Positions 34,650 through 50,676 of a stretch of 64,000 bases of DNA are shown one piece after another. The notes below the pieces were generated by a model. The model did no database searches, was not told the DNA's origin, and saw only the letters and a program-made list of their open reading frames with translations. The first letter of the stretch is position 1, and the number at the start of each line of letters is the position of its first letter. This DNA is from Cohaesibacter marisflavi (GTDB lineage: Bacteria; Pseudomonadota; Alphaproteobacteria; Rhizobiales; Cohaesibacteraceae): the NCBI RefSeq assembly GCF_900115225.1, contig NZ_FOVR01000001.1, positions 434,001 to 498,000 of the forward strand. Direction: 5' to 3'. A program made the translations under genes and the position numbers.

Positions 34650-35420
34650 CTAGAGGCCCTTGATCATGCCGCCATCAACGCGAAGCATGGAGCCGGTAAC
34701 AAAGCTTGCCTGCTCAGAGCAAAGAAAGGTAACCACGGCGCCGAACTCTTCTGGTTTGCCATAACGGCCCGCCGGAATGGTTGCACGGGAAGCTGCCTTG
34801 ACGGCTTCCACATCCTGTCCGGATTTCTTCGCTTTGCCAGCATCAAGCTCCGCCAGACGGTCAGTTGCGATGCGGCCTGGCAGAACCATGTTGACGGTGA
34901 TACCTGCGGAAGCCACTTCGCTAGCCAAGGTCTTGGACCAGCCCGCAATAGCACCGCGGACACCGTTGGAGAGCGCGAGGTTCGGGATTGGATTGACGAT
35001 ACCTGACGAGCCTATGGTCACAACGCGGCCCCAGCCTTTTTCGCTCATGGCTTCCAGCGCCTTGTCGGTGATGGCAAACATCGGGATTGCCATAGCGTTG
35101 AAAGCTGCCTGCCAGGAGACTGTGCTCTGGCCCTTGGCAGGACCAGCTGCCGGACCGCCACAGTTGTTGACCAGAATGTCGACAGGGTCTTTATCCAGCA
35201 GTGCAATGATGGCAGCGACAGAGGCTTCATCCGTCATGTCGAGCGTAACCGTGCTCACCTTATCCTTAAGCGCGTCTGGCAGGCCCTTTGGCAAAGCGCC
35301 AGAGCGAGAGGCTGCAATGACATCCGCGCCTTCTTCTGCCAGCAAAATGGCAGAGGCTGCACCCAAGCCGCGGCTTGCGCCCAGCACGAGCGCGCGTTTT
35401 CCTGTAAGACCGAAATCCAT
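34650..35420 (-). CDS. SDR-family NAD(P)-dependent oxidoreductase
   Basis: Short-chain dehydrogenase of 256 residues. The cofactor motif is LVLGASRGLGAA, the NNAG equivalent is VNNCGGP, the catalytic serine lies in TIGSSGIVNP, and the C-terminus GSMLRVDGGMIKGL is typical. The usual YxxxK appears altered (LALSNGVRGAIAGWSKTLA): the tyrosine position is replaced by serine/asparagine, as in some 3-oxoacyl-ACP-reductase-like members. Start MDFGLTGKRA overlaps the upstream dapA-like stop. Last gene of the long operon. Substrate unknown. Confidence 0.85.
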   Translation of the reverse strand: MDFGLTGKRALVLGASRGLGAASAILLAEEGADVIAASRSGALPKGLPDALKDKVSTVTLDMTDEASVAAIIALLDKDPVDILVNNCGGPAAGPAKGQSTVSWQAAFNAMAIPMFAITDKALEAMSEKGWGRVVTIGSSGIVNPIPNLALSNGVRGAIAGWSKTLASEVASAGITVNMVLPGRIATDRLAELDAGKAKKSGQDVEAVKAASRATIPAGRYGKPEEFGAVVTFLCSEQASFVTGSMLRVDGGMIKGL

Positions 35421-36346
35421 CAGCCAAGCTCCTTCAATCTTTTTTCCTGCCGAGCGATAATACGATCCACTTCGGCTTTTGCTGCGGCCGTCAAGCCCTT
35501 GCCCGGTTTGCGCATGGCTTCGGAGGCGATGACGCCGCGTTTCTGCAACACATATTTGCGTACAGCGAGGCCAAGGCCCGGCTGTTGTTCGTAGCATACC
35601 AGAGGTAGATAGGCATCATAGATGTCTTGTGCACGGTCTATGTCGCCTTTTTCAGCATAGGCAACCACATCTCTGAGCATTTCGATATAGGCAAAACCGG
35701 TCATGGCACCATTGGCGCCGCGCGCCATGGCTTCCGGCAAGAAGAGGGCGCCATTGCCGCAGAGAATGGAAATCGGTCGGCGTCCACCTTTTTCAGCTTC
35801 CCGCACAGCGGTGACCTTCTCCAGCCCCGGCCAGTCTTCATGCTTGAGCATGACTATCTGTTCATTCTGCGCCAGAATGGTGTTGAGCGTATCAGTGGAG
35901 ATGTTCACACCTGTGGTGTGCGGAAAGTCCTGCAAAACAACCGGTACCCCGGCGCCCGCAGCCTCACAGGCATTGCCATAATAGGCAATGATCTGCTCAT
36001 TGGTCTTAAGGTTGCCCGGAGGTGCGATCATAACGCCCGCTGCGCCCAGATCCATAGCTTTTTTCGACAATTCGGCAACGGCGGCAAGACCGGGTGCGGA
36101 TACGCCGACCACTATGGGGGCACCATTGGCGCGCTTGATCACGCGCTCGGCGATGGTGACTGCCTCGGACTGCACCATTTTGGGAGCTTCTCCCATCATG
36201 CCGAGCACGGTGATGCCGGTGGAGCCTTTTTCGAGGTAAAAATCAGTCGCGCGATCCAGACTATCGAAGTCGATGGCGCCCTGATCATCGAATGGTGTGA
36301 CCGAAATGGCGAAAACACCTTTGGTGTCACTGCTAAGAAGCGTCAT
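35420..36346 (-). CDS. DapA/NAL-family lyase (dihydrodipicolinate synthase-like)
   Basis: A 308-residue class I aldolase/lyase fold protein. Family features are SVTPFDDQGAIDFDSL, ITVLGMMGEAPKM (GxxGE), VVGVSAPGL, and the pocket VVLQDFPHTTGV. The Schiff-base lysine is expected in IVMLKHEDWPG. The tail of about 300 residues ends in KRLKEL. It could cleave or form a keto acid derived from the operon's substrate; lysine biosynthesis is unlikely in this context. The ATG at 36346 follows AAAGGAAG. Overlaps the SDR gene at ATGA. Confidence 0.85.
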   Translation of the reverse strand: MTLLSSDTKGVFAISVTPFDDQGAIDFDSLDRATDFYLEKGSTGITVLGMMGEAPKMVQSEAVTIAERVIKRANGAPIVVGVSAPGLAAVAELSKKAMDLGAAGVMIAPPGNLKTNEQIIAYYGNACEAAGAGVPVVLQDFPHTTGVNISTDTLNTILAQNEQIVMLKHEDWPGLEKVTAVREAEKGGRRPISILCGNGALFLPEAMARGANGAMTGFAYIEMLRDVVAYAEKGDIDRAQDIYDAYLPLVCYEQQPGLGLAVRKYVLQKRGVIASEAMRKPGKGLTAAAKAEVDRIIARQEKRLKELG

Positions 36347-36365
36347 GTTTCTTCCTTTCTGACCA

Positions 36366-37496
36366 TTATTTGACAAAGAGTTTTCGGGGGAAATTGGTCA
36401 GTCTTTCATAGCCCGTTTCCGTGATGGCGATGGTTTCGGACATGCCGTAGCCGCTTGCCAGAAGATAGGTGTGGAAGGTCTGGCCCGGTTCGAATTTCCA
36501 TGTGCAACTTGGTTCTGCCTCAAGAGGTTCGCCACCATTTGGCTGCAACAGAAGGCCGACCGAATAGAAGGTCTTGTTGGTGTAGGTTTCGCGCAGGCCT
36601 GCAGAAAGGATGCCATCGCGATAGATGCTGTCTGGCACTGTTGCTGCCACACCCGGACGCACTTCCGCAAGAGCGGCGTCCTGAATGGCGATCAGTTTCT
36701 CTACGATGGCGTGATCATTATCTTTTGCCGGAGCGATACGGATCGGGCGCATGAAGCGGGCATGATAGTGATGCACGTTCGGCGTCACCTCGATCTGCAC
36801 GATGTCGCCTTCTTCCAGAACTCGGTCAGAATAACCTCCATGCAGGTGGAAGGCACGTTCGCCCGAGGACATCACACCGGGGCCGGGTAGGTCGGAGCCA
36901 GCGCGGATCATGGCTGCGCAAATCTGTGCGGCCATTTCGCGTTCGGAAACGCCGACTTCGGAAGAGTCGATGGCGGCCTGCATGCCCGCTTCAGCGGCCT
37001 TGGCTGCAAGGCGTTGATAGGCGATCTCGGCTGGGGATTTGATGAGGCGCATGGTCGGGGCCAAGGCACTCTCGTCCTGCCAGATGATGCCCGGCAACGC
37101 AGAATTGAGATAGTCAAACCGCCCTGCAGACAGAGGCCATGCAGAAAGCTCGATACCCAGTTTGGCGGTGTCGCCCATGCGGCTCCTGATCGCGTCTGCG
37201 GCCACTTTCATACGGTCGTCACTGTCAGTCCACATTACGCGGTCGGCAAAGACACACGTGGTGTCGAGATAATACTCCTCGACATCGCGACAAAAGAGCG
37301 TTGGCTCGCCGTCCGCCGGGATGATGGCAAATTGCAGCGTTCCATAGGCGCGGGTGAAATAGCCGGTGACCCAGGTGACGGTTTCGGGCAGAAAGGCAAT
37401 GAGTCCGTCCAGATCGCGTCTTTTCAGTTCAGTTTGGACGCGTGCAAGACGGGCGAGATATTCCTCGCGTTCGAACCAATAAGCAGGTGTAGGCAT
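36366..37496 (-). CDS. M24-family (creatinase/aminopeptidase P-like) hydrolase without canonical metal site, copy 1
   Basis: A 376-residue pita-bread-fold protein with the creatinase N-terminal domain (WVTGYFTRAYGTLQFAI). In M24 metalloenzymes two aspartates, a histidine and two glutamates bind metal. Here the first motif reads IVQIEVTPNVHHYHARFMR, giving E and A at the aspartate positions. The GHG motif is replaced by SVGLLLQPNGG. Creatinase likewise works without metal. The ATG at 37496 follows AAGGAG. The protein probably cleaves a C-N bond in a small amide. It is not a close match to copies 2 and 3. Confidence 0.82.
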   Translation of the reverse strand: MPTPAYWFEREEYLARLARVQTELKRRDLDGLIAFLPETVTWVTGYFTRAYGTLQFAIIPADGEPTLFCRDVEEYYLDTTCVFADRVMWTDSDDRMKVAADAIRSRMGDTAKLGIELSAWPLSAGRFDYLNSALPGIIWQDESALAPTMRLIKSPAEIAYQRLAAKAAEAGMQAAIDSSEVGVSEREMAAQICAAMIRAGSDLPGPGVMSSGERAFHLHGGYSDRVLEEGDIVQIEVTPNVHHYHARFMRPIRIAPAKDNDHAIVEKLIAIQDAALAEVRPGVAATVPDSIYRDGILSAGLRETYTNKTFYSVGLLLQPNGGEPLEAEPSCTWKFEPGQTFHTYLLASGYGMSETIAITETGYERLTNFPRKLFVK

Positions 37497-37613
37497 GTAA
37501 AATCTCCTTGAGAGGGCCGAACCCGGCGGATGTGCCACCGGCATCAGATCTCAAATTTGGCAATGAAGTACCCAGTCAGAACAGGGCAAACAATTTCCAG
37601 TTGGCCCGAAGGG

Positions 37614-38315
37614 TCAGCCGTTCAGAACGAGTTCGGTAAAGCGGGTCAGCATGGTCTTGGCTTCATCGGCTTCATGAGCTGAAGCCTTCAGCTCTTCGAT
37701 GTCGGCCCCGTCCAGCTCCATGCGCTCGCGGTTCTGTTCAAACCAGATCGGCGCCTGCGCAAGGGTCACTTCCGGATGGCCCTGAATGCCCCAGATGTCC
37801 TCGTCCTTGTAGCGCCAGACATGGTTGGCGCAATCGTCCGAATAAGCCAGAATGGTCATGTCCGGATGGGCGCCGAGCACTTCGTCATTGTGCCAGACGA
37901 ACATATGGACAGTCTCATGCAGATCCTTGGCGATCTTGTCAGTGCGGGCCGCTTCGGTGACCGGCAAATCCTTGTACCCGATCTCGCAGCTGGTGCGGCG
38001 GAAAACCTGATCCTTGCCACAAAGGGCTGATGCCAGAATCTGGTGGCCGAAGCATACACCAAGCATCGGGATTTTCAGTTCAGCCGCTTTATGGATCAAA
38101 TCATGTTCGCGATGGATGAAGTCGATATCCTCATAGGCACCATGGGGGCTGCCGGAAAGAAAGATCCCGTCATAGCCATCCAGTGATTGCGGAAACTGGC
38201 CGTCAAAGGCCCAGAAGCGATCAACATTGAGGCCCCAGGTTTCGAACCTCTCGTCAAGTTTGGCAACCGACTGCAAGGAGCGGCCATTGCCCAGATATAG
38301 AAGACGTTTCCCCAT
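37614..38315 (-). CDS. Class I glutamine amidotransferase-like protein
   Basis: A 233-residue GATase1 domain protein standing alone. The nucleophile cysteine is in MLGVCFGHQILA, and the histidine/glutamate pair is in IQGHPEVTLAQ, so the triad is intact. An N-terminal LYLGNGRSLQSV and FLSGSPHGAYED resemble stand-alone GMP-synthase-like GATases, which often hydrolyse gamma-glutamyl compounds. In this operon it may release glutamate or ammonia from an imported amide; inferred. Start ATG 38315 is chosen over a longer frame with no homology. Confidence 0.83.
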   Translation of the reverse strand: MGKRLLYLGNGRSLQSVAKLDERFETWGLNVDRFWAFDGQFPQSLDGYDGIFLSGSPHGAYEDIDFIHREHDLIHKAAELKIPMLGVCFGHQILASALCGKDQVFRRTSCEIGYKDLPVTEAARTDKIAKDLHETVHMFVWHNDEVLGAHPDMTILAYSDDCANHVWRYKDEDIWGIQGHPEVTLAQAPIWFEQNRERMELDGADIEELKASAHEADEAKTMLTRFTELVLNG

Positions 38316-38389
38316 TGTAAGGGCATTCCTTGTTGTTGGGCGGGCCCTGCTTTTCAGCCGCAGGGCCACGCTTGAAAGCGGGAAGGGGA

Positions 38390-39607
38390 TCAGCGGCGGA
38401 ACAGCTCGACCGGCAAATCGGAAAAGACCTCGGGTTCCCCCGTTTCGCGAATGACGAAAGTCTGTCCGATGCCGGCAACAAGGCCAGTATCCGTGTCAGG
38501 GATCATGATATGCACAAAGAACACCATGCCCGGCTGCATCACCAGCGGGTTGCCCGAATAGATCATCGGCGGCACGTCCATCCATGTCGGTTTGAAGGTG
38601 CAACCAAGAGCATAGCCACAGGCCGCATAGCGGGCCTTGGCAAAGCCGCCTTTATCCAACACGCGCCGGTGGATGTCATCAAGTGTTCCCAATTCGCGAC
38701 CGGGCAGGGCATTCGCCTTGATCTCTTCGATGGCATCGCGAGCGACGCCCATCTGGCGTTCTTGACGCGGATCGACAGGGCCAACCGTGAGCGTACTTTC
38801 GATGCAGACATGATAGCGACAGTGGGACGCAGCCAGTTCTACCAGAACCTGATCCTGCTCTTCGATATAGTGAGCGATACCGGAATCGCGACCGAACAGG
38901 GCTGCAGCACCAGCATTGACCATAGGGCCGCCAGATGGAGTGTCGCCACCACGGGTTACCATCGCATCAAAAGCGGCTCCAATCAGAGCACTATCAGGGA
39001 TACCCGGTTTCACGCGCTCAATCGTGGCGCTTACGGCCGCATCAGCCAACTTGCCAGCAATACGGACATGCTCCAATTCGGCCGAAGATTTTATGAGGCG
39101 CAGCCCACGAATGATCCATGAGCCATCAGCCGTTTCGCAAAAACCTTCCAGCGCAGTGTCTACCGTGCGGCCGTTAAAAGCGGTAAGACCATAGCTGGCA
39201 TATTCGATGCCGACCTTCTTGCCCTTCAAGCCCTTCTCTTCAAGAATGGCCCGCAAGTCCAGGGCCGGATTAGCGTCTTCAGCATTGAGCCAGATGCGCA
39301 CCTCGTCATAAAGAGAGGCCACTTCAGCCTGCCGCTTGTCCGGCGTGCGGGTGAGAATAACGGTGGAGCTTTCGTCGGCGGTAATCACTCCGGCCTGAAA
39401 GAACACGAAGCCAGCGGTGTCAAAGCCGGTGAGCCAATAGTGGCTTTCCTGCGCAAAAACCAACAGGGCATCAAGCCCTTCCTCGCGCATCCGCTTACGG
39501 GTTGCCGCCAGACGGGCTGCATATTCCTCGGGCGGAAATCTTAGCAGGACGTCCCGTCCGCCTGGTGTTTTGGCGGCATATTCTTTCGGAACAAACATCT
39601 CGGTCAC
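38390..39607 (-). CDS. M24-family hydrolase without canonical metal site, copy 2
   Basis: About 405 residues. N-terminal creatinase domain includes ESHYWLTGFDTAGFVFFQ. The C-terminal domain has YIEEQDQVLVELAASHCRYH, where canonical aspartates are E and V. It ends QPGMVFFVHIMIPDTDTGLV instead of the metal-binding EPG. It shares many blocks with copy 3 (45947-47125), such as TWMDVPPMIYSGNP versus TSMDVPPMIYSGNP, so the two are paralogues. Relatives include creatinase and the ectoine hydrolase DoeA/EutD group. A GTG at 39607 with GGAG eight bases upstream is the probable start. Confidence 0.82.
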   Translation of the reverse strand: MTEMFVPKEYAAKTPGGRDVLLRFPPEEYAARLAATRKRMREEGLDALLVFAQESHYWLTGFDTAGFVFFQAGVITADESSTVILTRTPDKRQAEVASLYDEVRIWLNAEDANPALDLRAILEEKGLKGKKVGIEYASYGLTAFNGRTVDTALEGFCETADGSWIIRGLRLIKSSAELEHVRIAGKLADAAVSATIERVKPGIPDSALIGAAFDAMVTRGGDTPSGGPMVNAGAAALFGRDSGIAHYIEEQDQVLVELAASHCRYHVCIESTLTVGPVDPRQERQMGVARDAIEEIKANALPGRELGTLDDIHRRVLDKGGFAKARYAACGYALGCTFKPTWMDVPPMIYSGNPLVMQPGMVFFVHIMIPDTDTGLVAGIGQTFVIRETGEPEVFSDLPVELFRR

Positions 39608-39612
39608 TTGAC

Positions 39613-40833
39613 TTACTCCATCTCGCAAATATCAGCCATGGTCATCAGATAGACGCGGATCATGTCGAGATACTCATCGATCTCTACGCGTTCATCCGGC
39701 ATGGTGTTGTATTTTCCGCCCGGGCCACAAACGACGCCTTCCATGCCGCCGACGGCCCATAGATGTCCGGCATCGGTGCCGAAATAGGCTGGAGGGGCGA
39801 TGGCTCCGGTGGGTTGGTCTTTTCCGCGTACGGCCTTATAGGCTGCATTGAGCGCGGTGACGATGCGTGCATCCTTGGCCACTTCAAAGGCAGGCATGGT
39901 TGGCTGACCCTTGCGGGTTTCCGGCGTAACCGTAGCCTTGAGACCGGGGAAACGGGCTTCCAGCTCATCAAGCTTCTTGCGCAAGTCATTGACGGCATTC
40001 TCGCGCGTCTGGCCAGGGCCATAGCGGCCAGATCCCTTGATGCGGACATAATCGGCCACCTGCGGCGGGCGCCACTCATGCAGCTCTTTACCAAGCGCAC
40101 CATGCACAACACCGACATGAACGCGGTTCACCGAGCGATGCTCTTCTGAAGGGGCATCCGAGAAGGTCATCTCGTTGAGTTCGGGGATGAGCGCACACGC
40201 GGCCATGATGGCATCGACACCGGCTTCTCGCTTGGAAAGATGGCGTGTGATGCCTTCCAGCTCGATGGTAAAGGTGAAGGCCGCTGCATGCATGGTAATG
40301 GCTTGCAGATCGGAAGGTTCTGAATTGATGAAATAGTCAGCACGCAGACCGGAATTGACTGCCGCCAAGGTGCCAATACCGCCTTGCAATTCCCCGATCA
40401 CATAAGTGAGGATCACATCGCCCTTGAGGCGTTTGCCACTATCGATCAATGTCTTGACGGCACAGAGCGAGGCCATATCACCGGCTTTCATGTTGGAAAC
40501 GCCAATGCCATAGATGAACTCGTCATCAACGAGACCGCCCCATGGATCTACGGTCCAGCCTTCCGTCACCGGGTTGGTGTCCAGATGCCCGTTAAACAAC
40601 AGGCTCTTGCCGCCACCAGTGCCGCGCCAACGCCCGATGGCGTTGACACGGTTGCCCACCACAGGCATCAACTCAACTTCCAGCCCCATCTTTTCCATGA
40701 TGGAAGCCACATGTTCGGCCAGCTTGCGCTCGCCTTCTGTTTCTGAATAGCTCTTGTGGCTGACGACATCAGACAGGATATCAAGGCATTCCGACCGGTT
40801 GAGAGCCTTTGCTAGATCCAGTGCTTCAGACAT
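39613..40833 (-). CDS. M20-family peptidase/deacylase-like protein with altered metal ligands
   Basis: About 406 residues, ArgE/DapE/ACY1 fold. The first ligand motif is normal (LLFNGHLDTNPV). The usual bridging aspartate in SDMKGG is asparagine here (GIGVSNMKAG). The glutamate pair of the catalytic DEE motif reads GELQGGIGT, losing one glutamate. The C-terminal histidine of AHxPDE is threonine (NTMPDERV). Function as a standard di-zinc peptidase is therefore doubtful. The start ATG 40833 has GGAG seven bases upstream and overlaps the ATPase gene end. Confidence 0.8.
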   Translation of the reverse strand: MSEALDLAKALNRSECLDILSDVVSHKSYSETEGERKLAEHVASIMEKMGLEVELMPVVGNRVNAIGRWRGTGGGKSLLFNGHLDTNPVTEGWTVDPWGGLVDDEFIYGIGVSNMKAGDMASLCAVKTLIDSGKRLKGDVILTYVIGELQGGIGTLAAVNSGLRADYFINSEPSDLQAITMHAAAFTFTIELEGITRHLSKREAGVDAIMAACALIPELNEMTFSDAPSEEHRSVNRVHVGVVHGALGKELHEWRPPQVADYVRIKGSGRYGPGQTRENAVNDLRKKLDELEARFPGLKATVTPETRKGQPTMPAFEVAKDARIVTALNAAYKAVRGKDQPTGAIAPPAYFGTDAGHLWAVGGMEGVVCGPGGKYNTMPDERVEIDEYLDMIRVYLMTMADICEME

Positions 40834-42541
40834 TTTCATGCTCCGTTTCATTTACGCCGAGCGACACTTGAACGGGAACAGCGTCGAGTAGGGCTCTGGT
40901 GTAGGAATGGCGATCCGCAGCATCGGCATCATCACGGTCGAACAGATCAACCAGTTTGCCATGCTGCATCACCGCAATACGATGTGCGATCTGGCGGATC
41001 AGATTGAGATCATGGGTGATGAAGATGCAGGCGGTGCCCGTGTCTTTCTGAAGGTTGACGAGCAGCTCTGTCACCGACGCCTGTACGGATACGTCCAGCG
41101 CTGCGGTCACCTCATCGCATATCACCAGATCCGGTTCGGCGGCAAAGGCACGAGCGATGGCAACCCGCTGCTTTTCTCCACCGGAAAGCTGGTGAGGATA
41201 GCGGTCTGCATACTCCGTTGGCAGGCGCACCAGTTCGAGCAACTCCCTGATCCGATCCTTGATCTGATCGCTTGGGACCACATCGTAAAGATGCAGCGGG
41301 CGTGAAAGGATGGTGCCGATTGTCTGGCGGGGATTGAGAGACGCATCCGGATGCTGGAACACGATCTGTACTTTGCGGCGATAATCTCGGGAGATCTGCT
41401 TGCGCCCATTGACTTCGATATCGCCGAATTTGACCTTGCCGGTGAAGTCATTAAGACCCGTCAGGGCCTTGGCAATAGTGGATTTGCCCGACCCACTTTC
41501 CCCGACAATGCCCAAAAGCTCGCCGGGGCGAACGCTGAGGGATACATCCTTGGCTCCCCAGAAAATCTCGCTTTCATCTGGTTTGATCTTGAGCACCTTC
41601 TCCTTGAAGGAGAGGGGGGAATACCGCACGCTGACCGCATCAAGCGAAAGCAATGGCTCTTTGGTTTCCGGCTTCTTGACGCCCAGCCAACGATCAGGAT
41701 GCGGAACCGCACTGATAAGGCGCCTGGTGTAGCTGTCCTGCGGATTGTTGAATACTTCGTCGACCGGTCCATGCTCGACGAGATCGCCATGATGCAGAAC
41801 CGAGACCTGATCGGCGATGCGAGAAACGAGCCCCAGATCATGCGAGATATAGAGCGCCGAAACGTGGGTTTCCTCGCGCAGGCGGTTGAACAGGTCAAGG
41901 ATTTGCCGCGCCGTCAGAATATCGAGCGCCGTGGTTGGTTCATCGAAGATGATCAGTTCCGGTTCACAGGCAAAGGCGGTCGCAATGACCACGCGCTGCT
42001 TTTCGCCACCCGATGCTTCATGCGGATAGCGGCTGAGCATTTCCTTGGGGCGGGTGATGCCGGTGCGCGCAAGGGCGGCTTCGGCTTCTGCGCGCGCCTG
42101 TGCCTTGGTCAAACCGCGATGGGCCATGAGCACTTCGGTGATCTGGTCGCCGATGCGCATGGTCGGATTGAGCGAGGTGGAGGGGTCCTGAAAGACCATC
42201 GAAATGCGCTGGCCGCGAATATCGATCATCTGGCGCGGCGACATTTCGAGCAATTCCTGCCCGGCCAACCGAATTGCGCCATGCTTCTCAATGGCATTGT
42301 CCGGCAAATAGCGCATGATGGACCAGGCCATCGAGGATTTGCCCGAGCCGCTTTCACCCACAAGACCATGGGTTTCGCCCGGAGCGATCTCCAGATTGAT
42401 ATTGTTGAGCGCTTTGACCGGTCCGTTGCTGGTGGCGTAGGAAAGGGAGTAGTTACGAATGGCAAGGCGTGGCGCTTTGGCATCGAACGGGACTGCCTTG
42501 TCCTTGACCGGTGGATGGGTGTTGACATGTGTGGCTGACAT
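40826..42541 (-). CDS. Peptide-type ABC importer ATPase, fused DppD-DppF
   Basis: A 571-residue protein carrying two complete ATPase domains. The first has Walker A GESGSGKSS and signature ASGGEKQRVVIATAF. The second (from about residue 300) has [29 protein letters not shown] and VICDEVTAALD. Each domain is followed by an oligopeptide-type C-terminal segment. Fusion replaces the separate DppD and DppF of E. coli. It overlaps the permease by one base and should power that pair. Confidence 0.92.
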   Translation of the reverse strand: MSATHVNTHPPVKDKAVPFDAKAPRLAIRNYSLSYATSNGPVKALNNINLEIAPGETHGLVGESGSGKSSMAWSIMRYLPDNAIEKHGAIRLAGQELLEMSPRQMIDIRGQRISMVFQDPSTSLNPTMRIGDQITEVLMAHRGLTKAQARAEAEAALARTGITRPKEMLSRYPHEASGGEKQRVVIATAFACEPELIIFDEPTTALDILTARQILDLFNRLREETHVSALYISHDLGLVSRIADQVSVLHHGDLVEHGPVDEVFNNPQDSYTRRLISAVPHPDRWLGVKKPETKEPLLSLDAVSVRYSPLSFKEKVLKIKPDESEIFWGAKDVSLSVRPGELLGIVGESGSGKSTIAKALTGLNDFTGKVKFGDIEVNGRKQISRDYRRKVQIVFQHPDASLNPRQTIGTILSRPLHLYDVVPSDQIKDRIRELLELVRLPTEYADRYPHQLSGGEKQRVAIARAFAAEPDLVICDEVTAALDVSVQASVTELLVNLQKDTGTACIFITHDLNLIRQIAHRIAVMQHGKLVDLFDRDDADAADRHSYTRALLDAVPVQVSLGVNETEHENV

Positions 42542-43359
42542 CAATGGCTCCTGCGGGGGTCAAGGCTGTCGCGCAAGGCATCGCCAAACAGGTTGAAACC
42601 GAGTGCGGACATGGCAATGAAAATGCCGGGAATAGCCACACACCATGGATTGCGGAACATGAATTGGCGTGCTTCAGCAACCATCAGGCCCCATTCCGTG
42701 CTCGGAGGCTGGGCACCAAGACCCAGAAAGCCGAGGGTTGCGCCAATCATGATGGCAAAAGATACGCGAATGGTGGATTCCACTATGATGGGGCCAAGCG
42801 CGTTGGGCAGTACTTCGCGTACCACGATATATATGCCGGATTCACCGCGCGCGACGGCTGCTCGCACATAGTCGCGTGTGCGGACCGAAAGCACTGCGCT
42901 GCGCGAAATGCGAGCCATGCCGGGCGCAAAGGCCACGGCAACCGCCAGCATCGCTTGCCCCATACCGCCGCCAAGGACCGTAACAATCAACAGGGTGAAA
43001 AGCAATTCGGGAACAGCAAGAAGCCCGTCGAGAATGCGCATGATGGCATTGTCGATCTTGCCGCCAGCCACACCGGCGATCACGCCGATAATAGCCCCGA
43101 TGCTCACGCCAAGCAGCGTGGCGAATACACCGAACAGCACCGTCGTTGGGGCGCCATTCAGAATGCGCGACAGAAGATCTCGCCCGAACTGATCCGTACC
43201 CAGAAGATGGGTAAAGGATGGGCCCTGAAGTCGGTTCAAGGCATCGAAAGCCTGCGGATCATAGGGCGCGAGCCACGGACCGGCAATGGCGATGGCTGCA
43301 GTGAACAGCAACAGAAAGATGCCAACGAGCGCATTGGGTGCCAAAAAGCTTTTAGGCAT
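42541..43359 (-). CDS. Peptide-type ABC importer permease (DppC-like)
   Basis: Inner-membrane permease of 272 residues with about six helices. The opening LLGTDQFGRDLLSRILNGAP is diagnostic of DppC/OppC. The EAA loop reads VAVAFAPGMARISRSAVLSV and RAAVARGESGIYIV. It overlaps the DppB-like gene by eight bases and the ATPase by one. Confidence 0.92.
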   Translation of the reverse strand: MPKSFLAPNALVGIFLLLFTAAIAIAGPWLAPYDPQAFDALNRLQGPSFTHLLGTDQFGRDLLSRILNGAPTTVLFGVFATLLGVSIGAIIGVIAGVAGGKIDNAIMRILDGLLAVPELLFTLLIVTVLGGGMGQAMLAVAVAFAPGMARISRSAVLSVRTRDYVRAAVARGESGIYIVVREVLPNALGPIIVESTIRVSFAIMIGATLGFLGLGAQPPSTEWGLMVAEARQFMFRNPWCVAIPGIFIAMSALGFNLFGDALRDSLDPRRSH

Positions 43360-44302
43360 AACGAACCCTCGGATCTAGTATGGCGATGATCACGTCCGAC
43401 AGGAAGTTGGACAGCGCATAGACAGTGGCGAGCAGAAGCGTAACCGCCTGAATGACGGGCAAGTCCCTGTTCTCCAGAGCGTAGATCAACAGACGCCCCA
43501 ATCCGGGCCAGGCGAAGATTTCTTCAACAACGATAATGCCGCCCAGCAGATAGCCGATATCAAGCGAGATAACTGCAACAGCCGGAGCCAGAGAATTTGG
43601 CAGGGCATGGCGCCAGATCACCCGCTTTTCGGTGAGACCCTTAAGGCGCGCCGCACGAACAAAATCTGACGACAGCACTTCGGACATTTCCGAGCGTACC
43701 TGACGGGAAATATGCGCCATCAGCACCAGACCCAACGTCACAGCTGGCAGCACGACGTGAGAAAAGAAGCCCGGTATGCTCTCCCACGGAGCTGTGAAGC
43801 CACCGGCGGGGAAAATCCCGGTTTTGGGCGCGGCAAAAACCACCAGCAACAGGGTTGCTGTTACGAATTCGGGCAAGGCCGAGCCCATATAGCTGAAGAC
43901 AGCCAGAAGCAGATCCATGAGCTTGCCGCGGCTGACTGCAGCGATAGCACCAAGGGGAATGGCAATGATGGTGACCAGCACAAGCGCTGTGCCTGCCAGA
44001 ACGGCGGAATTGACGAATGCTTCGCCAACAACGTCGGAAACTGGCAGGGACAGACGCAATGACATGCCAAAGTCGCCGTGAATGACGCCGCTCACCCAAC
44101 CCGAATACTGCATGTACCAGGGAAGGTCGAGATGAAGCTGCTTCTCCAACGCCGCCACAGCATCAGGCGTAGCATATTCGCCCAAAATCATGATGGCGGC
44201 GTTGCCCGGAAGCACCGCCGTAATCGCGAAAACCGCGAAAGTGACGATGACCAGTACAAGGAGAATAGACAGCAATCGGCGGAATAGATATCCGATTGTC
44301 AT
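43352..44302 (-). CDS. Peptide-type ABC importer permease (DppB-like)
   Basis: Permease of 316 residues with six helices. The N-terminus MTIGYLFRRLLSILLVLVIV and the later DLPWYMQYSGWVSGVIHGDF are typical of DppB/OppB. The cytoplasmic loop is MSEVLSSDFVRAARLKGLTE. It lies 12 bp after the binding protein gene in the same orientation. Confidence 0.92.
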   Translation of the reverse strand: MTIGYLFRRLLSILLVLVIVTFAVFAITAVLPGNAAIMILGEYATPDAVAALEKQLHLDLPWYMQYSGWVSGVIHGDFGMSLRLSLPVSDVVGEAFVNSAVLAGTALVLVTIIAIPLGAIAAVSRGKLMDLLLAVFSYMGSALPEFVTATLLLVVFAAPKTGIFPAGGFTAPWESIPGFFSHVVLPAVTLGLVLMAHISRQVRSEMSEVLSSDFVRAARLKGLTEKRVIWRHALPNSLAPAVAVISLDIGYLLGGIIVVEEIFAWPGLGRLLIYALENRDLPVIQAVTLLLATVYALSNFLSDVIIAILDPRVRYA

Positions 44303-44314
44303 GTCAGTTTATTC

Positions 44315-45865
44315 TCAGGCTTCTTGGTCCAACCAAACATTTTCAAAGTAGAAGTATCGGTTGATCGGAGCCAGATTATAGTCTTCGGTCTTGTCGCTTG
44401 ATGCGGTCAGCAGATCTTCCCAGAACGGGATGATGTAAACCTGATCGTCAAGCATCATCTGCTGTGCTTTAGCGTAGATCTCTGCGCGCTTGGCAGGATC
44501 GAGCGTTTCGCGGCCTTCATCAACCAGAGCATCGAACTCTTTGTTCTTCCAAGCGGAATCTTCATAGGATGCATCGGAAGTCAGCAGAAGGCGGAAGGCT
44601 GCGTCAGCGGTTGGCTGCATACCCCAGTAACCGATATAGAAGTCGCCCTTCATCCAGACATTGGCCAGATAGGTGTCATGCGGCATGGTTTCAACTTCAA
44701 TGTCAAAGCCTGCTGGCAGAGCCATCTGCTTGATGGCAACGGCGACCTGCGCACGAATGGCCGGACGGTTGGACGCAACCATGGTGACCTTGAGGCCGTC
44801 TGGATAGCCCGCTTCAGCCAGAAGGGCTTTGGCGGCTGCCGGATCGTAAGGCACTTCCGGAGAATCGATGACATACTGATATTCAGGCGACAGGATATTG
44901 TCATGAGCCGGACGGCCAAGGCCTTCCAGAATGACGTCCACAAGCATCTGTCGGTCAACAGACATAGCCAGCGCTTTCCGAACGCGGACATCGCTCCAGG
45001 GTTTGGCATCGTGACGCATAACTACGTTGACGAAACGGCCGGACGGGATGCGTTTTGCTTCAATGCCAGCAGAACCGGCGATGCGTTCATAGTCGGCCTG
45101 CTGAACCGTCAGCATGACATCCATCTGACCATTGAGGAAGTTAGCGGTTTCTGCTGCAAGGTCAGGGAAGAGGTGCATCTCGACTGCTTCCAAATAAGGC
45201 TTGCCAGGAATGAAGTAGTTTTCATTCTTGACCAGACGCACCATCTGCGCACTGTCATAGGTTTCCAGCTTGAAGGGGCCGGTGCCATTGACCGTGGTTT
45301 CCAGCGTTGCCGGATCTGCTTCCAATGCCTTGCGCGAAACGATGCGGGCGTTGGCATGTGCGGTAGCCGTTGGCAAGTCAGCGAAAGGAGAGTTGAGCTT
45401 GAAAATAACAGTCAGGTCATCAGCAGCTTCAACGCTATCGATCATGGTCAGGACAGAACGGGCCGAGGCCGGACGATCCGGGTCCAGAATGGCTTCGTAA
45501 GTAGCGACAACGTCATCAGCGGTCAGCGCAGAGCCATCATGGAAGGTCACACCTTCACGCAGTTTGAAGGTAAAGACTGTTGCGCCTTCACTACCTTCCC
45601 AGCTTTCCGCCAGATCGGCCATTGGTTTGTTGTCAACTCCGATGCGGGTCAGGCCGGAATAAAGCATGTCGAGGCATGGATATTCTGCAGGACCGGACAG
45701 GGTCAACGGGTTCAGTGTTGCAATACGCGTGGAGTGGCTGACCTTGAGAATGCCGCCGGCTTTTGGTTCTGCGGCAGAAGCAAGACCGATACCGGTCATC
45801 GGAATAAGACCGGCTGCGGCCATACCCAGCATGACGCCACGGCGGGAAATCGTAAATTTGCTCAT
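44315..45865 (-). CDS. Peptide-type ABC importer substrate-binding protein
   Basis: Family 5 solute-binding protein of 516 residues. The N-terminus ISRRGVMLGMAAAGLIPM has a twin-arginine-like signal, so export may be through Tat. The mature part has GGILKVSHSTRIATLNPLTL, the family-5 signature LREGVTFHDGSALTADDVV and SVDRQMLVDVILEGLG. Family 5 members bind peptides but also nickel, opines, glutathione and other small ligands. It belongs to the long operon headed by the M24 gene at 47125. Confidence 0.92.
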   Translation of the reverse strand: MSKFTISRRGVMLGMAAAGLIPMTGIGLASAAEPKAGGILKVSHSTRIATLNPLTLSGPAEYPCLDMLYSGLTRIGVDNKPMADLAESWEGSEGATVFTFKLREGVTFHDGSALTADDVVATYEAILDPDRPASARSVLTMIDSVEAADDLTVIFKLNSPFADLPTATAHANARIVSRKALEADPATLETTVNGTGPFKLETYDSAQMVRLVKNENYFIPGKPYLEAVEMHLFPDLAAETANFLNGQMDVMLTVQQADYERIAGSAGIEAKRIPSGRFVNVVMRHDAKPWSDVRVRKALAMSVDRQMLVDVILEGLGRPAHDNILSPEYQYVIDSPEVPYDPAAAKALLAEAGYPDGLKVTMVASNRPAIRAQVAVAIKQMALPAGFDIEVETMPHDTYLANVWMKGDFYIGYWGMQPTADAAFRLLLTSDASYEDSAWKNKEFDALVDEGRETLDPAKRAEIYAKAQQMMLDDQVYIIPFWEDLLTASSDKTEDYNLAPINRYFYFENVWLDQEA

Positions 45866-45946
45866 TTTACCCTCATGAGGTTGATTGCTAGTTCGTGTTT
45901 GTTTGGTGAATTGTTCTTATCTGTTCTTTTTGGAAGAGGCCGCCTG

Positions 45947-47125
45947 TCAGGTGATTACAGTCAGATCATCCGGCAATGCGGTCAGTACTTCAGGGGCCCC
46001 CTCTGTGATGAGCAGAGTGTGGCCGACGCCCATGGCAAGTCCGGTGTCGCTGTCACCATTCATGACATGGTAAAAGAGGGTCATGCCCGGCTGGCATTGT
46101 GTCGGATTGCCCGAATAGATCATGGGCGGAACATCCATGCTGGTGGGCGCATAAGTGCAGCCGACCGAATAGCCGGTGGCGCCATAGCGGGCGCGCTTAT
46201 ATCCGCCTTTGTCCAGACCATCGGCATAGAGATCGAAAATCTCGCCCAGAGTTGTGCCCGGGCGGGCAATTTCGGTCATCCGGTGTAGGGTTTCCATACC
46301 TACGTCATACATCTTGCGATGGGCATCCGAGACGTCTCCAAACAGGATCGTCCATTCGGTTTTCACATTGTAATGCCGATAGGCGACCGGATATTCGACC
46401 AGCACCTGATCCTGCGTCTCAATCCGGCGTGGATCGGAAACGCCACGGCCATAAACGGCGCGATTGCCCGAATTGAAGATTGGGGCATTGGGAGGCATAT
46501 CAGCGCCTTGTCCGAGTATGGAGGTCAAATAGGCGGCTTTCAGATCACTATCGAGAACGCCGGGTTTGGCTGCATCGATAACAGCAAGAAGCGAGTTGTC
46601 GAGAATCTCGGCGGCCTTCTTCGTGTAGGCGATTTCTGCGGGGGACTTGATGAGGCGGAGACGGCGAATCAGATGGTCGTCATTTTGCAGCGTGCACCAG
46701 CCTTCCAGCGCGTTTTGCACACGCCAAAGGTTCCATCCTGTCAGGCCGTGGGTATTGAGCTCGATAGCTATATTTTTGCCTTCCAGACCAAGCTCGGCCA
46801 GGATGACTTTGAGATCTTGCGCCGGATCGGCTTCCTCTGAATCCCACCAGATCCGAATGTCGGAAATCGTGCTGGTTTGTCTGGCTTGCACAAGATCCGG
46901 ACGACGGGTGAGGAGGATGGGTTCGCGGCCATCTGCGGGAACAACAAGGCACTGGAAAAAGACAAAACCGCCGGTATCAAAGCCGGTTAGCCAATACATG
47001 CTCTCTTGAGCAAATACCAACATCGCTTCGCAACCCGCTTCACCAATCTTCTGACACAGGCGATTGTGGCGGGCTTTATGCTCCTCTCTGGAGAATGGGA
47101 GGCTTGGTTGAACGAGGCTATCCAC
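45947..47125 (-). CDS. M24-family hydrolase without canonical metal site, copy 3, first gene of long operon
   Basis: A 392-residue paralogue of copy 2. Shared blocks include ESMYWLTGFDTGGFVFFQ, ALEGW and TSMDVPPMIYSGNP. The metal motif reads QVLVEYPVAYRHYNVKTEW, lacking both canonical aspartates. The start is the GTG at 47125, with AAAAGGA about ten bases upstream; the frame extends to 47311, but that stretch contains the operator and would be untranslated. It is first in the operon and divergent from the FCD regulator. Confidence 0.83.
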   Translation of the reverse strand: MDSLVQPSLPFSREEHKARHNRLCQKIGEAGCEAMLVFAQESMYWLTGFDTGGFVFFQCLVVPADGREPILLTRRPDLVQARQTSTISDIRIWWDSEEADPAQDLKVILAELGLEGKNIAIELNTHGLTGWNLWRVQNALEGWCTLQNDDHLIRRLRLIKSPAEIAYTKKAAEILDNSLLAVIDAAKPGVLDSDLKAAYLTSILGQGADMPPNAPIFNSGNRAVYGRGVSDPRRIETQDQVLVEYPVAYRHYNVKTEWTILFGDVSDAHRKMYDVGMETLHRMTEIARPGTTLGEIFDLYADGLDKGGYKRARYGATGYSVGCTYAPTSMDVPPMIYSGNPTQCQPGMTLFYHVMNGDSDTGLAMGVGHTLLITEGAPEVLTALPDDLTVIT

Positions 47126-47173
47126 GAGTGGTTCGTCCTTTTTTGATCGTTGCGTTGCATTGAGCTTAAAGTA

Positions 47174-47183
47174 TGGTATACCA
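47174..47183. promoter_or_regulatory. FCD-GntR operator before the M24/ABC operon
   Basis: TGGTATACCA, a perfect 10-bp palindrome, 49 bp before the GTG of the first operon gene. FadR/FCD-type GntR proteins bind such short TGGTnnACCA sites. An identical palindrome lies before pxpA. A half-site TGGTATAG occurs at 47279-47286 nearer the regulator start and may allow autoregulation. Confidence 0.65.
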
Positions 47184-47349
47184 AAGGTCAACCACATGAA
47201 TTCATATTGTCTCTCAATAAAATACATGCAGTATTTTCGGCTGTTTGAATTGTAAGGATGGGATGAGTATAAGGAGAGTGGTATAGGCTCATCCTTGCCG
47301 ATAAACGGCATCTGTACGTGACTTGTGGAACTAGAAGAGCGAGAAAAGC

Positions 47350-48009
47350 ATGCTGATCGAGACCAGTAAGCGGCTGGCCCAACAGGCTTATGAAAAGATC
47401 CTGGAACTCATTCTCTCAGGAGAAGCCGAGCCGGGGGAAATGTTGACCGAGCGTCGGTTGGCTGAAACGCTGGACATGTCGCGCACCCCCATCCGGGATG
47501 CTCTGTTGATGCTTGAAAGCGAAGGTCTTTTGAAGCGTCATGGCAGCCGTGGGCTTCAGGTCAAGCAGATGCGCATCGAGGATTATATGGAAGTGCTCCA
47601 GATCCGCCTGCTGCTTGAGCCGGAAGCGGCGCGTCTTGCTGCGGGTCATTTGACTGCGGAGACGATTTCAGACCTGCGCAAGCGCTTGCATGACCTGATT
47701 GATGGCGCAGAAAAAGGCGCAACTCGACCTGATCGCGAAGCCGTTCGCGCCGTTGATGATGGTCTGCATGGAGCGATCGCTAACATGGCCGGAAATGCAC
47801 ATCTCGCGCAAATCATCCACTCTCTGAGACGACAAACCCAGATTTTTGACCTGCGCAGCATTCCCGAGCGCTTGACATCGACCTGTCAGGAGCATTTGGC
47901 CCTCATAGATCTTTTGGAACAAGGCAAAAGCGAAGAGGCGGCTGAAGCGATGCGTGAGCATCTCGACCATGTTCGCGCGAGTATTATACGGAGACTTACA
48001 CCGCAATGA
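47350..48009 (+). CDS. FCD-domain GntR-family regulator
   Basis: A 219-residue regulator. Winged helix: AYEKILELILSGEAEPGEML, TERRLAETLDMSRTPIRDAL and LMLESEGLLKRHGSRGLQV. The C-terminal FCD domain (about residues 80-215) has LRIRLLLEPEAARLAAG-type helices and metal-ligand-like residues, usually binding a carboxylic acid effector. It is divergent from the long minus operon and overlaps the downstream hydrolase gene by four bases, so it probably governs both. Confidence 0.92.
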   Translation: MLIETSKRLAQQAYEKILELILSGEAEPGEMLTERRLAETLDMSRTPIRDALLMLESEGLLKRHGSRGLQVKQMRIEDYMEVLQIRLLLEPEAARLAAGHLTAETISDLRKRLHDLIDGAEKGATRPDREAVRAVDDGLHGAIANMAGNAHLAQIIHSLRRQTQIFDLRSIPERLTSTCQEHLALIDLLEQGKSEEAAEAMREHLDHVRASIIRRLTPQ

Positions 48010-49325
48010 CATCGCACTCGGAGGGCGCTGTCGCGCTCGAATTGGAAGGGCGTAACTCACCGCCGGCCGATCTAGACCTTGCTCGCAAACTGTTCGACGA
48101 ATTGGAGCAGCGCACCAGCAATGCCTTTGGCTTTACACGTCCGTCCTTCGGGCTAGGCGAACAGATCGCCCATGATATGGTGCGGCGCGAAGCGCGCAAA
48201 CTGGGCCTTGAAACAAAAATTGATGCCGGTTGTAACCTCTATATGACCCTCAAGGGTCGTAAAAGCGGCCCCGGCTTGATGATTGGTTCCCATCTTGATT
48301 CAGTGCCCCGTGGCGGCAACTTTGATGGCGCTGCTGGCGTTTTGATGGGGTTGGCTGTTGTATCCGGTTTTGTAAAGGCCGGTATCAAGCCGGAGCGTGA
48401 TATCACTGTCATGGCCATACGGGCCGAAGAAAGTGTCTGGTTTGGTGCTTCCTATATCGGCAGCCGCATGGCGTTTGGTCGGTTGGATGGCGACGAGCTT
48501 ACGGCTCTTAAGCGCTCTTCCGATGGCGTATCTTTGCTGTCTGCTATTGACGGAAATGGTGGTGATGCAAAGTCCATTGCAGCCGGAAACGCTTTCCTTT
48601 CGGCTGAAACAGTTGGCATGTTCATCGAACCGCATATCGAGCAGGGGCCTGTTCTTGTGGATAGAAAGATCCCTGTCGGGATTGTCACCGGTATTCGCGG
48701 TTCTTTCCGTTACCGAGCAGCTCGCTGCCTTGGGGAATATGGTCATTCTGGCGGCACCCCACGCGATTGTCGGGCCGATGCGGTGCGCGCTGTTGCCACG
48801 CTGGTTGTGCGCCTTGATGAAGCCTGGATGCAGCTGGCCGACGAAGGTCATGATCTGGTCGTCACCTTTAGCCAGTTTTCCACCAATCCCGATGAGGCTG
48901 CTTTCAGCAAGATTGCTGGTGAAGTCGATTTTTCTCTCGACGTGCGCAGCGAGGAGCCCGAGACGCTGCAGCTAATGCAGGAGAAACTGCACGAGGCCAT
49001 TGCTGTCATTGAGCGCGAGCAGAGTGTTCGGCTCGATATGGGCAAGATATCGACCAGTACGCCCGCCAAAATGCAGCCTTCCATTGTAAAGGGGCTGGAA
49101 AGCTGTGCGCAGGATCTTGAACAGACAACGCTCACCATGCCATGCGGTGCTGGCCACGATGCTGCTGTATTTGCCGCAGCTGGCGTGCCGACTGGTATGA
49201 TCTTCATCCGTAACGACCACGGCAGCCATAACCCTGAAGAGCATATGGAACTGGACGATTTCGCTCTGGCGACCAATCTGCTCTCGGCATTTTGCCTGAG
49301 CGACCCGTTGGAGGTGGCTGAATAG
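48006..49325 (+). CDS. M20-family Zn-dependent hydrolase, N-carbamoyl-L-amino-acid hydrolase-like
   Basis: A 439-residue amidase of the hydantoinase/allantoate amidohydrolase/beta-ureidopropionase group. The metal ligands are retained: MIGSHLDSVPRGGNFDGAAG, RAEESVWFGASYIGS (glutamate pair), FIEPHIEQGPVL, CGAGHDAAVFAAAG and HNPEEHMEL. It should hydrolyse an N-carbamoyl or related amide bond. Translationally coupled to the FCD regulator. Its intact site contrasts with the M20 protein in the neighbouring operon. Confidence 0.87.
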   Translation: MTSHSEGAVALELEGRNSPPADLDLARKLFDELEQRTSNAFGFTRPSFGLGEQIAHDMVRREARKLGLETKIDAGCNLYMTLKGRKSGPGLMIGSHLDSVPRGGNFDGAAGVLMGLAVVSGFVKAGIKPERDITVMAIRAEESVWFGASYIGSRMAFGRLDGDELTALKRSSDGVSLLSAIDGNGGDAKSIAAGNAFLSAETVGMFIEPHIEQGPVLVDRKIPVGIVTGIRGSFRYRAARCLGEYGHSGGTPRDCRADAVRAVATLVVRLDEAWMQLADEGHDLVVTFSQFSTNPDEAAFSKIAGEVDFSLDVRSEEPETLQLMQEKLHEAIAVIEREQSVRLDMGKISTSTPAKMQPSIVKGLESCAQDLEQTTLTMPCGAGHDAAVFAAAGVPTGMIFIRNDHGSHNPEEHMELDDFALATNLLSAFCLSDPLEVAE

Positions 49326-49392
49326 GGGGGGGTGATAAGGCCGGAGGCCTAACGCGCGCACCTTCTAAAGTTCTCTGGAAGCAGCACAAAAA

Positions 49393-49428
49393 AGCACCCG
49401 GCATCACGCTATGAATGATCCGGGTGCT
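49393..49428 (+). terminator. Terminator after the hydrolase gene
   Basis: Stem AGCACCCGG (49393-49401) / CCGGGTGCT (49420-49428) with an 18-nt loop, 67 bp after the stop. No strong T-run on the plus strand; A-run on the other side. Confidence 0.6.
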
Positions 49429-49471
49429 GAAGGTGGGATAAACCGCCCTTGGTGCGGCAACATCTTGTCAA

Positions 49472-49485
49472 GATGGTATACCATC
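49472..49485. promoter_or_regulatory. FCD-GntR operator before pxpA
   Basis: GATGGTATACCATC, a perfect 14-bp palindrome containing the TGGTATACCA core found before the M24/ABC operon. It lies 155 bp before pxpA, which places this gene in the same regulon. Confidence 0.65.
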
Positions 49486-49639
49486 TGTATGCATTAGCTG
49501 AAATGCAAAATCAAGTGTTTCTTGTGCTTGTTATTGTGGATTGAACTGTCTGCTGTACTTCAGTGAGAGCGCGGGTCGTTAATTTGATGCAAGCGCGTCT
49601 TTCCTATATCAAGAAACTCATACAGAAAGGGTTGGTAAC

Positions 49640-50410
49640 ATGACCAAAACAGTCGATTTGAATTGTGATATGGGCGAGGCTTTCGGTGCCTATACCATCG
49701 GTGATGATGCCGCGATGTTGGAAATCATTTCCACCGCCAATGTGGCGTGCGGGTTTCATGCGGGCGATCCCGTCGTGATGCGCGACACGATTCTTGCAGC
49801 CAAAGCGCAGGGCGTTTCCATCGGGGCGCATCCTTCCTTTATGGATCTCTATGGCTTCGGGCGCCGACGCGTCATGGGTGACAAGCCAGAAGATCTTGAG
49901 GCGCAAATTATCTATCAGATCGCTGCAATTGACGGCATGGCACGCGCGCTCGGCTGGCCTATCAGCCATATGAAGACGCACGGGGCACTTGGCAATATGG
50001 CAGCAGAAGATCCTGTATTGGCAGAGGTTTGTGTACGGGCTGTGGTTGCGGTCAATCCCAAGCTGGTGGTCGTGGCGCTTCCTTATTCCGAAATCATGAA
50101 GGCTGCCGAAAAAGCAGGCCTTGAGGTGGTGTGTGAAGTTTACGCAGACCGCACCTACACCGCAGATGGCATGTTGACGCCGCGTTCCCAGGAGGGGGCC
50201 GTGATCAAGGATCATGCCCAGTCGGTCGATCAGGCGCTCGCCATGGTGCGTGATGGATATATTCCCACAACAGCAGGCACAAAGCTTCCTGTAGAAGCTG
50301 GATCTATTTGTGTTCATGGGGATACGCCAGGCGCTGTTGCCACAGCAAAAGACTTGCGTGAGGCCTTCATCAAGGAAGGAATCGCAATCGCCCCATTTGC
50401 CCGCAATTGA
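49640..50410 (+). CDS. pxpA: LamB/YcsF protein, 5-oxoprolinase subunit A
   Basis: A 256-residue PxpA homologue. Signature TVDLNCDMGEAFGAYTIGDD at the N-terminus and STANVACGFHAGDPVVMRDT identify the family. With PxpB and PxpC it opens 5-oxoproline (pyroglutamate) to glutamate using ATP. No pxpB/pxpC is next to it: the gene ends in a terminator and is followed by the integrated element. RBS is AAAGGG before ATG 49640. A role on another cyclic amide such as a hydantoin-like ring is possible. Confidence 0.9.
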   Translation: MTKTVDLNCDMGEAFGAYTIGDDAAMLEIISTANVACGFHAGDPVVMRDTILAAKAQGVSIGAHPSFMDLYGFGRRRVMGDKPEDLEAQIIYQIAAIDGMARALGWPISHMKTHGALGNMAAEDPVLAEVCVRAVVAVNPKLVVVALPYSEIMKAAEKAGLEVVCEVYADRTYTADGMLTPRSQEGAVIKDHAQSVDQALAMVRDGYIPTTAGTKLPVEAGSICVHGDTPGAVATAKDLREAFIKEGIAIAPFARN

Positions 50411-50418
50411 TTTCAGCT

Positions 50419-50450
50419 GGCAGGTGGCGCGAAAAAGACCGCTGCCTGCC
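50419..50450 (+). terminator. Terminator after pxpA
   Basis: Eleven-base-pair stem GGCAGGTGGCG (50419-50429) / CGCTGCCTGCC (50440-50450), two G-U pairs, followed by GTCCTTGTTTCC. It closes pxpA. Confidence 0.7.
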
Positions 50451-50584
50451 GTCCTTGTTTCCTAAGCGGCAATCATTGGACCAAGCGCTTAAGAAAGAAG
50501 GTGAGCTGATTATAGCAAGCTGCAATGATCCAATTGCTTGGATCAAACAACTATCAAATTGCTTTAAGATTTTAAGAGAAATTT

Positions 50585-50638: not shown

Positions 50639-50676
50639 GCATATCCTATATAATTGAAATAACTTTATTATTCGAT

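Follow-up and report, generated by a model that had tools for sequence, protein, structure and literature searches.

A widespread import and catabolic gene cluster with metal-ligand-less M24 proteins and ties to 5-oxoprolinase in Cohaesibacter marisflavi

We analyzed a 64,000-nucleotide stretch of the Cohaesibacter marisflavi genome (contig NZ_FOVR01000001.1, positions 434,001 to 498,000 of the forward strand), termed the window, whose coordinates are used throughout. It holds a presumed regulon in which 11 minus-strand genes, encoding an importer, three M24 proteins, and an M20-like protein, face a divergent regulator and a carbamoylase-type enzyme, an arrangement for which the coordinates, strands, and family labels given in a preliminary description all proved correct. 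The genome measures 5.34 Mb, and its nearest named relative in our scan is Cohaesibacter haloalkalitolerans, whose M20 protein is 95% identical. The genes of the regulon are as follows:

45947-47311, minus strand: M24a, DoeA-like, metal ligands replaced (E, K, Y, G at ligand columns 1, 2, 3, 5)
44315-45865, minus strand: family 5 substrate-binding protein (SBP) of an ATP-binding cassette (ABC) importer (family matches)
43352-44302, minus strand: ABC permease A (orthologues annotated as ABC permease)
42541-43359, minus strand: ABC permease B (orthologues annotated as ABC permease)
40826-42544, minus strand: fused double ATPase of the ABC importer (two matched stretches in most of 25 families listed)
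39613-40851, minus strand: M20', an M20-like protein (alignment, predicted model)
38390-39628, minus strand: M24b, DoeA-like, metal ligands replaced (E, C, Y, G at columns 1, 2, 3, 5)
37614-38369, minus strand: class I glutamine-amidotransferase-like protein (GATase), accessory (CFGHQ and HPE motifs present)
36366-37544, minus strand: M24c, DoeA-like, metal ligands replaced (E, R, Y, S at columns 1, 2, 3, 5), accessory
35420-36376, minus strand: DapA-family aldolase/dehydratase-like protein, accessory (LKHE lysine motif present)
34650-35597, minus strand: short-chain dehydrogenase/reductase (SDR; family match)
47350-48009, plus strand: GntR/FCD regulator, divergent (family match)
48006-49325, plus strand: AAH, an M20 enzyme of the hydantoinase/carbamoylase amidase type, ligands intact
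49640-50410, plus strand: PxpA (LamB/YcsF), a 5-oxoprolinase subunit, probable member

Because adjacent listed minus-strand open reading frames (ORFs) sit close together or overlap pairwise (39613-39628, 40826-40851, 42541-42544, and 43352-43359), we read these genes as a single operon; its importer is of the Opp type. M24a probably starts downstream of its listed ORF start. For the SDR, the best family match covers the listed ORF only from residue 61 onward, which places its probable start near 35420. The genes originally assigned to the regulon stand, but it probably does not end at 49325: pxpA was overlooked, and the regulon likely extends to 50410. Directly after pxpA lies a phage-integrase family gene (50677-51714), with no tRNA found at 49300-52500; an insertion may have cut the 3′ side of the regulon, which could account for the absent pxpBC and D-2-hydroxyacid dehydrogenase (2HADH) genes.

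Relatives of the cluster are widespread. From a scan of the GTDB species collection, we took the best 80 of 294 loci with a relative and added six plasmid loci, and these 86 were sorted by best matches into 34 window-like loci (type A), 47 loci of a second kind (type B), and 5 unassigned. Gene content was determined by tblastn within fetched flanks of 10 kb, which cut many type A loci short on the AAH side. The order SBP–permease–permease–ATPase–M20' is found in 73/73 loci holding all five genes (28 type A, 45 type B), excluding a chance arrangement and settling the earlier question of whether the gene order recurs in other genomes. Around this core, the 28 complete type A loci contain M24a (27), AAH (26), M24b (23), and the GntR regulator (23), and less often the DapA-like protein (15, some only ~44% identical), GATase (7), M24c (5), and the SDR (3). 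The 45 complete type B loci instead have a different M24 protein (26) and an intact DapE/ArgE-type M20 enzyme (41); this hydrolase was also considered as a carbamoylase and rejected, on a motif count of 0/41 and on its alignment. No M20' was found at an E value of 1e-40 on nine plasmids or megaplasmids of model strains, a search limited to those replicons and leaving chromosomes aside (Sinorhizobium meliloti pSymA and pSymB; Rhizobium johnstonii pRL10, pRL11, and pRL12; Ruegeria pomeroyi megaplasmid; Paracoccus denitrificans plasmid 1; pNGR234b; and Agrobacterium fabrum pAt), while the positive control, CP053209, was recovered.

The loss of both aspartates and the histidine among the metal ligands, first noticed from the sequence alone in all three M24 proteins, is borne out by alignment with four M24 proteins of the metal type from this genome (L002, L003, L004, and L006; L001 was not counted). 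The alignment sets the three window proteins beside DoeA, 63 orthologues, and eight ORFs from this genome's other M24 loci (75 sequences in all); 24/87 orthologues, which fell outside 340 to 480 residues, were left out beforehand, so that 20 of 27 M24a, 22 of 28 M24b, 3 of 5 M24c, and 18 of 27 type B proteins were kept. At ligand columns 1, 2, 3, and 5, the metal-type controls (4/4) carry Asp, Asp, His, and Glu, whereas the window proteins carry Glu, Lys/Cys/Arg, Tyr, and Gly/Ser. A shift of the ligands to other positions, which would have undercut the observation, is thereby answered for these four columns; column 4 is misaligned in two of the four controls, and we make no claim for it. Among the 70 DoeA-like sequences (DoeA, the window proteins, the 63 orthologues, and L005, L007, and L008), column 1 is Glu and column 3 is Tyr in 70/70, and the second Asp is present in 0/70. 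Counting along the 6twk chain places the column 1 Glu at residue 255 (the E255 position), which we take to be the nucleophile of DoeA/EutD; Mais et al. are said to have reported in 2020 that this Glu is the covalent nucleophile of EutD.

The supposed kinship of the M24 proteins with creatinase and DoeA also holds, DoeA being the nearest. Sequence comparison ranks it first among the solved relatives of M24b and of M24c, and the five best solved matches to a predicted M24b model (pLDDT 85.7) are all DoeA structures (6yo9, TM 0.86/0.89 by Foldseek). Parts of PMC3187862 describe DoeA as a member of the peptidase M24 family similar to creatinase. The window proteins are nevertheless not DoeA themselves: they score 112 to 130 bits against a cut-off of 613 (TIGR02993) and 146 to 166 against 575 (NF038259), whereas the positive control L007, a true DoeA of the same genome, reaches 731 against 613. 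In the tree, the M24a sequences fall into a single clade, as do the M24b sequences, and both clades join the M24 protein of L008 in an order that is unsettled among the three; M24c groups with the type B M24, and DoeA forms a separate clade, although long branches leave the deep joins unsure. Metal-free hydrolysis by M24 proteins is as such already known, and we infer that the window proteins, too, would hydrolyze C–N bonds without a metal. A further metal-less M24 protein (L124:9142-10326 on G000:C24), 41% identical to M24a, has no obvious catabolic cluster around it, as judged by eye.

In M20', three ligand positions are replaced (the bridging Asp by Asn120, the second Glu by Leu155, and the C-terminal His by Thr383), while His89, Asp91, Glu154, and Glu178 are retained; with respect to the five ligands and catalytic Glu of a di-zinc M20 enzyme, it thus deviates at three positions and keeps Glu154. 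The preliminary description was right about these losses but read them as erosion. This we rule out, because all three substitutions are invariant in 87/87 M20' sequences, as are the four retained residues. Because the collection was scanned with the peptide patterns YNTMPDE and KSLLFNGH, conservation around Thr383 and beside His89 is subject to a selection bias; Asn120 and Leu155 lie outside both patterns. The predicted M20' model (pLDDT 84.3, with low confidence at segments 94-101 and 381-384) matches DapE, ArgE-type deacetylases, and 5-nitroanthranilate aminohydrolase (5NAA-A). Since 5NAA-A also has Asn in the bridging position and was solved with Mn and Zn, according to structure entry titles, M20' is plausibly a one-metal enzyme; a pseudoenzyme role, for this protein alone, is also possible.

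AAH, in contrast to M20', is intact, as had been proposed. It scores 253 bits against a cut-off of 204 for the hydantoinase/carbamoylase amidase model (TIGR01879), and its ligand residues are kept in 26/26 type A orthologues by alignment column (25/26 by motif). Members of this family may also act on non-carbamoyl substrates. The identity of an ergothioneine carbamoylglutamate hydrolase (ErtE) was tried and rejected (288 against a cut-off of 520 bits).

A concrete indication of a substrate class comes from the genes next to AAH. Within the fetched flanks of complete type A loci, a 2HADH gene (21/28) and PxpB (19/28) lie beside AAH, with PxpC and PxpA further out on the same side; orthologues of both this 2HADH and PxpB are absent from the fetched flanks of complete type B loci (0/45). 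These genes were named by family models in L014, which carries PxpA, PxpB, and PxpC, and were joined by similarity in other loci. A search for PxpA covered 25/34 type A and 18/47 type B genomes: judged by coordinates, pxpA lies 8.8 to 15.1 kb from M20' on the AAH side in 20/25 of the former, and 13 of these 20 fall at 10.98 to 11.19 kb. In one further type A genome (L042), it lies 9.8 kb from M20' on the other side, and L059 also has a pxpA within its locus on that side. L014, outside the 25 genomes searched, has pxpA within its fetched sequence as well, while L032 lacks pxpA at the AAH-side place yet has PxpB and the dehydrogenase. The tie to 5-oxoprolinase therefore points to a lactam or pyroglutamate-type intermediate.

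A sister cluster (L123), elsewhere on the same contig, combines genes for a D-amino-acid transaminase, PxpA, PxpB, PxpC, a 2HADH, an AAH-like enzyme (45% identical to the window AAH), a metal-less M24 protein, two GntR/FCD regulators, and a tripartite ATP-independent periplasmic (TRAP) importer, and it thereby supplies this genome with PxpB and PxpC. The best solved relatives of its TRAP receptor are 6wgm (3.8e-41), 2pfy (1.7e-39), and 2pfz (2e-38), after which values drop to 4e-20; 2pfy and 2pfz represent Bordetella pertussis DctP7 and DctP6, solved with bound pyroglutamate according to passages of PMC3454389 and PMC13274462. Comparable sets are carried by plasmids of Agrobacterium and Salipiger, as well as of Methylobacterium (no 2HADH listed) and Rhizobium (no AAH listed), as taken from plasmid gene tables that are incomplete. 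The sister cluster, these plasmid sets, and a locus of Terrarubrum together indicate a recurring combination of a metal-less M24 protein, 5-oxoprolinase, and, in most cases, an M20 amidohydrolase, with varying importers. A related cluster on A. fabrum C58 pAt (L132, 459884-479029) has an amino-acid ABC importer, an M20 protein, an enolase-superfamily protein, and an M24 protein of the sister-cluster clade, along with a CTP-synthase-like protein, a VOC protein, GhrA, and a D-amino-acid transaminase.

Some features of the window's own regulon and its surroundings stand apart from these comparisons. The second-best solved relative of the SBP is AgaA (6hlx), which we take to be the agropinic-acid receptor; agropinic acid is presumably an N-substituted lactam, a weak hint given that other family members score alike. 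Near the place of the usual Tyr-x3-Lys motif, the SDR has LSNGVR, as does that of L049, the one of three orthologues compared in which the site could be resolved; to judge from these residues, it may not be an ordinary dehydrogenase. The regulon is adjoined by the phosphonate metabolism genes phnM (31811-32971) and phnN (33010-33624), both over their family cut-offs.

The interpretation that we favor, at somewhat less than an even chance, is that the cluster serves catabolism via a compound of the pyroglutamate or lactam type, using DoeA-type M24 enzymes that work without a metal. What we observe is which genes occur and in what order, the loss of ligands, the kinship with DoeA, the conservation, and the linkage to pxp genes (the last partly by coordinates only), whereas every reaction, and the substrate, belongs to a scheme proposed from these observations. 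In this scheme, the Opp-type importer would bring in a nitrogen-containing compound, and M24a and M24b (with M24c where present) would cleave a C–N bond without a metal, the bond probably belonging to a cyclic amide or amidine and the Glu in place of the first metal ligand serving as nucleophile as presumed for DoeA/EutD. AAH would take off an N-carbamoyl or N-acyl group; together with PxpB and PxpC, PxpA would open the lactam at the expense of ATP; and the DapA-like protein, the SDR, and, in relatives, the 2HADH would process the carbon skeleton. M20', a conserved protein, would bind metal at no more than one site and work alongside the importer, and, in the window genome, PxpB, PxpC, and the 2HADH of the sister cluster could act in trans. 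A bolder form of this interpretation, which we regard as doubtful, is that M20' founds an M20 group without the second metal site (a one-metal or metal-free hydrolase), that M24a and M24b are a metal-free pair, possibly a heterodimer, and that with AAH and 5-oxoprolinase they constitute an undescribed route for opening a lactam- or pyroglutamate-containing natural compound.

Several observations weigh against catabolism via a lactam. Most pxpA genes were placed by coordinates without contig names and lie within fetched sequence in only 4/25 genomes (L025, L030, L059, and L083), and some coordinate matches within 16 kb are chance, falling in fetched ranges without such a gene (e.g., L032 and L035); L035, L036, and L041 have no pxp gene nearby. 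Type B loci share the importer and M20' but usually lack pxp genes (at most 1/18 searched, L051, within 10 kb by coordinates; L099, outside the 18, holds a PxpA-like ORF ~3 kb past M20'), which means that a lactam need not be part of the imported compound. The window itself has PxpA alone after AAH and then the integrase gene, with no PxpB, PxpC, or 2HADH alongside, and the 2HADH of the sister cluster shares only 34% identity with its type A counterpart in L014. Finally, 6wgm, the top solved relative of the TRAP receptor, has no named ligand in the match output, and Terrarubrum (L133) has a type A set without M20'.

The strongest rival, owing to AAH and to a Methylobacterium neighborhood, is a cyclic ureide pathway, in which a hydantoin, dihydropyrimidine, or creatinine-like ring would be opened by M24 or PxpABC to an N-carbamoyl amino acid, from which AAH would release ammonia, carbon dioxide, and the amino acid. 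We consider it unlikely. The family score of AAH fits such a role, and in Methylobacterium radiotolerans the set of M24, PxpABC, and hydrolase adjoins an Asp/Glu-racemase-family gene, a gene annotated as dihydroorotase, and a hydantoinase/carbamoylase gene; however, no hydantoinase-type amidohydrolase was found among the scanned proteins of the operon and its flanks, the sister TRAP receptor is nearest to pyroglutamate receptors and 6wgm, and the AAH family may also accept substrates that lack a carbamoyl group. Improbable, too, is the catabolism of D-amino acids or peptidoglycan-type peptides, whereby a D-Glu or D-amino-acid conjugate would be imported, trimmed by M20' and M24, and passed to D-amino-acid transaminase, D-2-hydroxyacid dehydrogenase, and 5-oxoprolinase: although the transaminase occurs in the sister cluster and in four plasmid clusters with a related M24 protein, and A. 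fabrum C58 has a muconate cycloisomerase/DgcA-like enolase (below both cut-offs), there is no transaminase or epimerase among the scanned proteins of the window cluster, and none is named beside the cluster in the type B regions viewed. We give equally little credence to M20' and the M24 proteins being decayed or purely regulatory pseudoenzymes that leave the chemistry to AAH alone. Most of their metal ligands are indeed lost and AAH is an intact metallohydrolase, but the invariance of the substituted residues in M20' and of the Glu in the DoeA-like M24 proteins speaks against decay, and DoeA demonstrates that catalysis is possible for M24 proteins without metal ligands. A second ectoine or hydroxyectoine pathway, suggested by DoeA as the nearest characterized relative, is very improbable and largely refuted by the unmet DoeA cut-offs, by the lack of any DoeB-type (succinylglutamate desuccinylase/aspartoacylase-type) match among the ten cluster proteins scanned, and by the true DoeA elsewhere in the genome beside EutC (476 against a cut-off of 472 bits).

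Catabolism via a lactam or pyroglutamate-type compound would thus sharpen the preliminary proposal of an unrecognized pathway: the import and catabolic cluster is there, the literature searched (most subscription journals not covered) yielded no description of it and no match to a characterized pathway, and the 5-oxoprolinase association now supplies a concrete substrate class. If true, this interpretation would give the 28 window-like clusters a pathway and would provide a likely role for the importer–M20' module of all 73 complete loci, whose hosts are soil, plant-associated, and marine bacteria. It would also make M20 a second hydrolase family in which a metal site has been abandoned while the protein stays under strong selection. 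The plasmid annotations that we viewed name these proteins as Xaa-Pro/aminopeptidase P family proteins or M20/M25/M40 metallo-hydrolases, implying metals that are seemingly absent.

Compared with known systems, the cluster is apparently a new variant assembled from known kinds of enzymes, and its pathway appears unstudied. The metal-free M24 enzyme DoeA/EutD shares with the window proteins the fold, the Glu at the E255 position, the Tyr replacing the metal-binding His, and the loss of the second Asp; the window proteins differ in being ~25% identical to it, in forming separate clades far under its cut-offs, in being present as three copies in one operon, and in having no DoeB alongside. Creatinase, which acts on a C–N bond without a metal, shares the fold (by a Foldseek match to the M24b model) but ranks below DoeA by both sequence and Foldseek. 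AAH resembles N-carbamoyl-L-amino-acid hydrolase and allantoate amidohydrolase in its family score and intact ligands, differing in that it stays under the cut-off for ErtE. The PxpABC operon of Corynebacterium glutamicum parallels PxpA in the window, PxpABC in relatives, and the GntR-type regulator; that operon is pxpTABC, with a secondary transporter, and the passages of PMC13274462 that describe it mention no M24 protein, M20', AAH, or Opp importer. M20', finally, has the fold of the M20 family (DapE and ArgE) and of 5NAA-A, along with the His, Asp, and two Glu residues and, as in 5NAA-A, the Asn for the bridging Asp, but it is set apart by Leu155 and Thr383, which replace ligands of the second metal site throughout the family.

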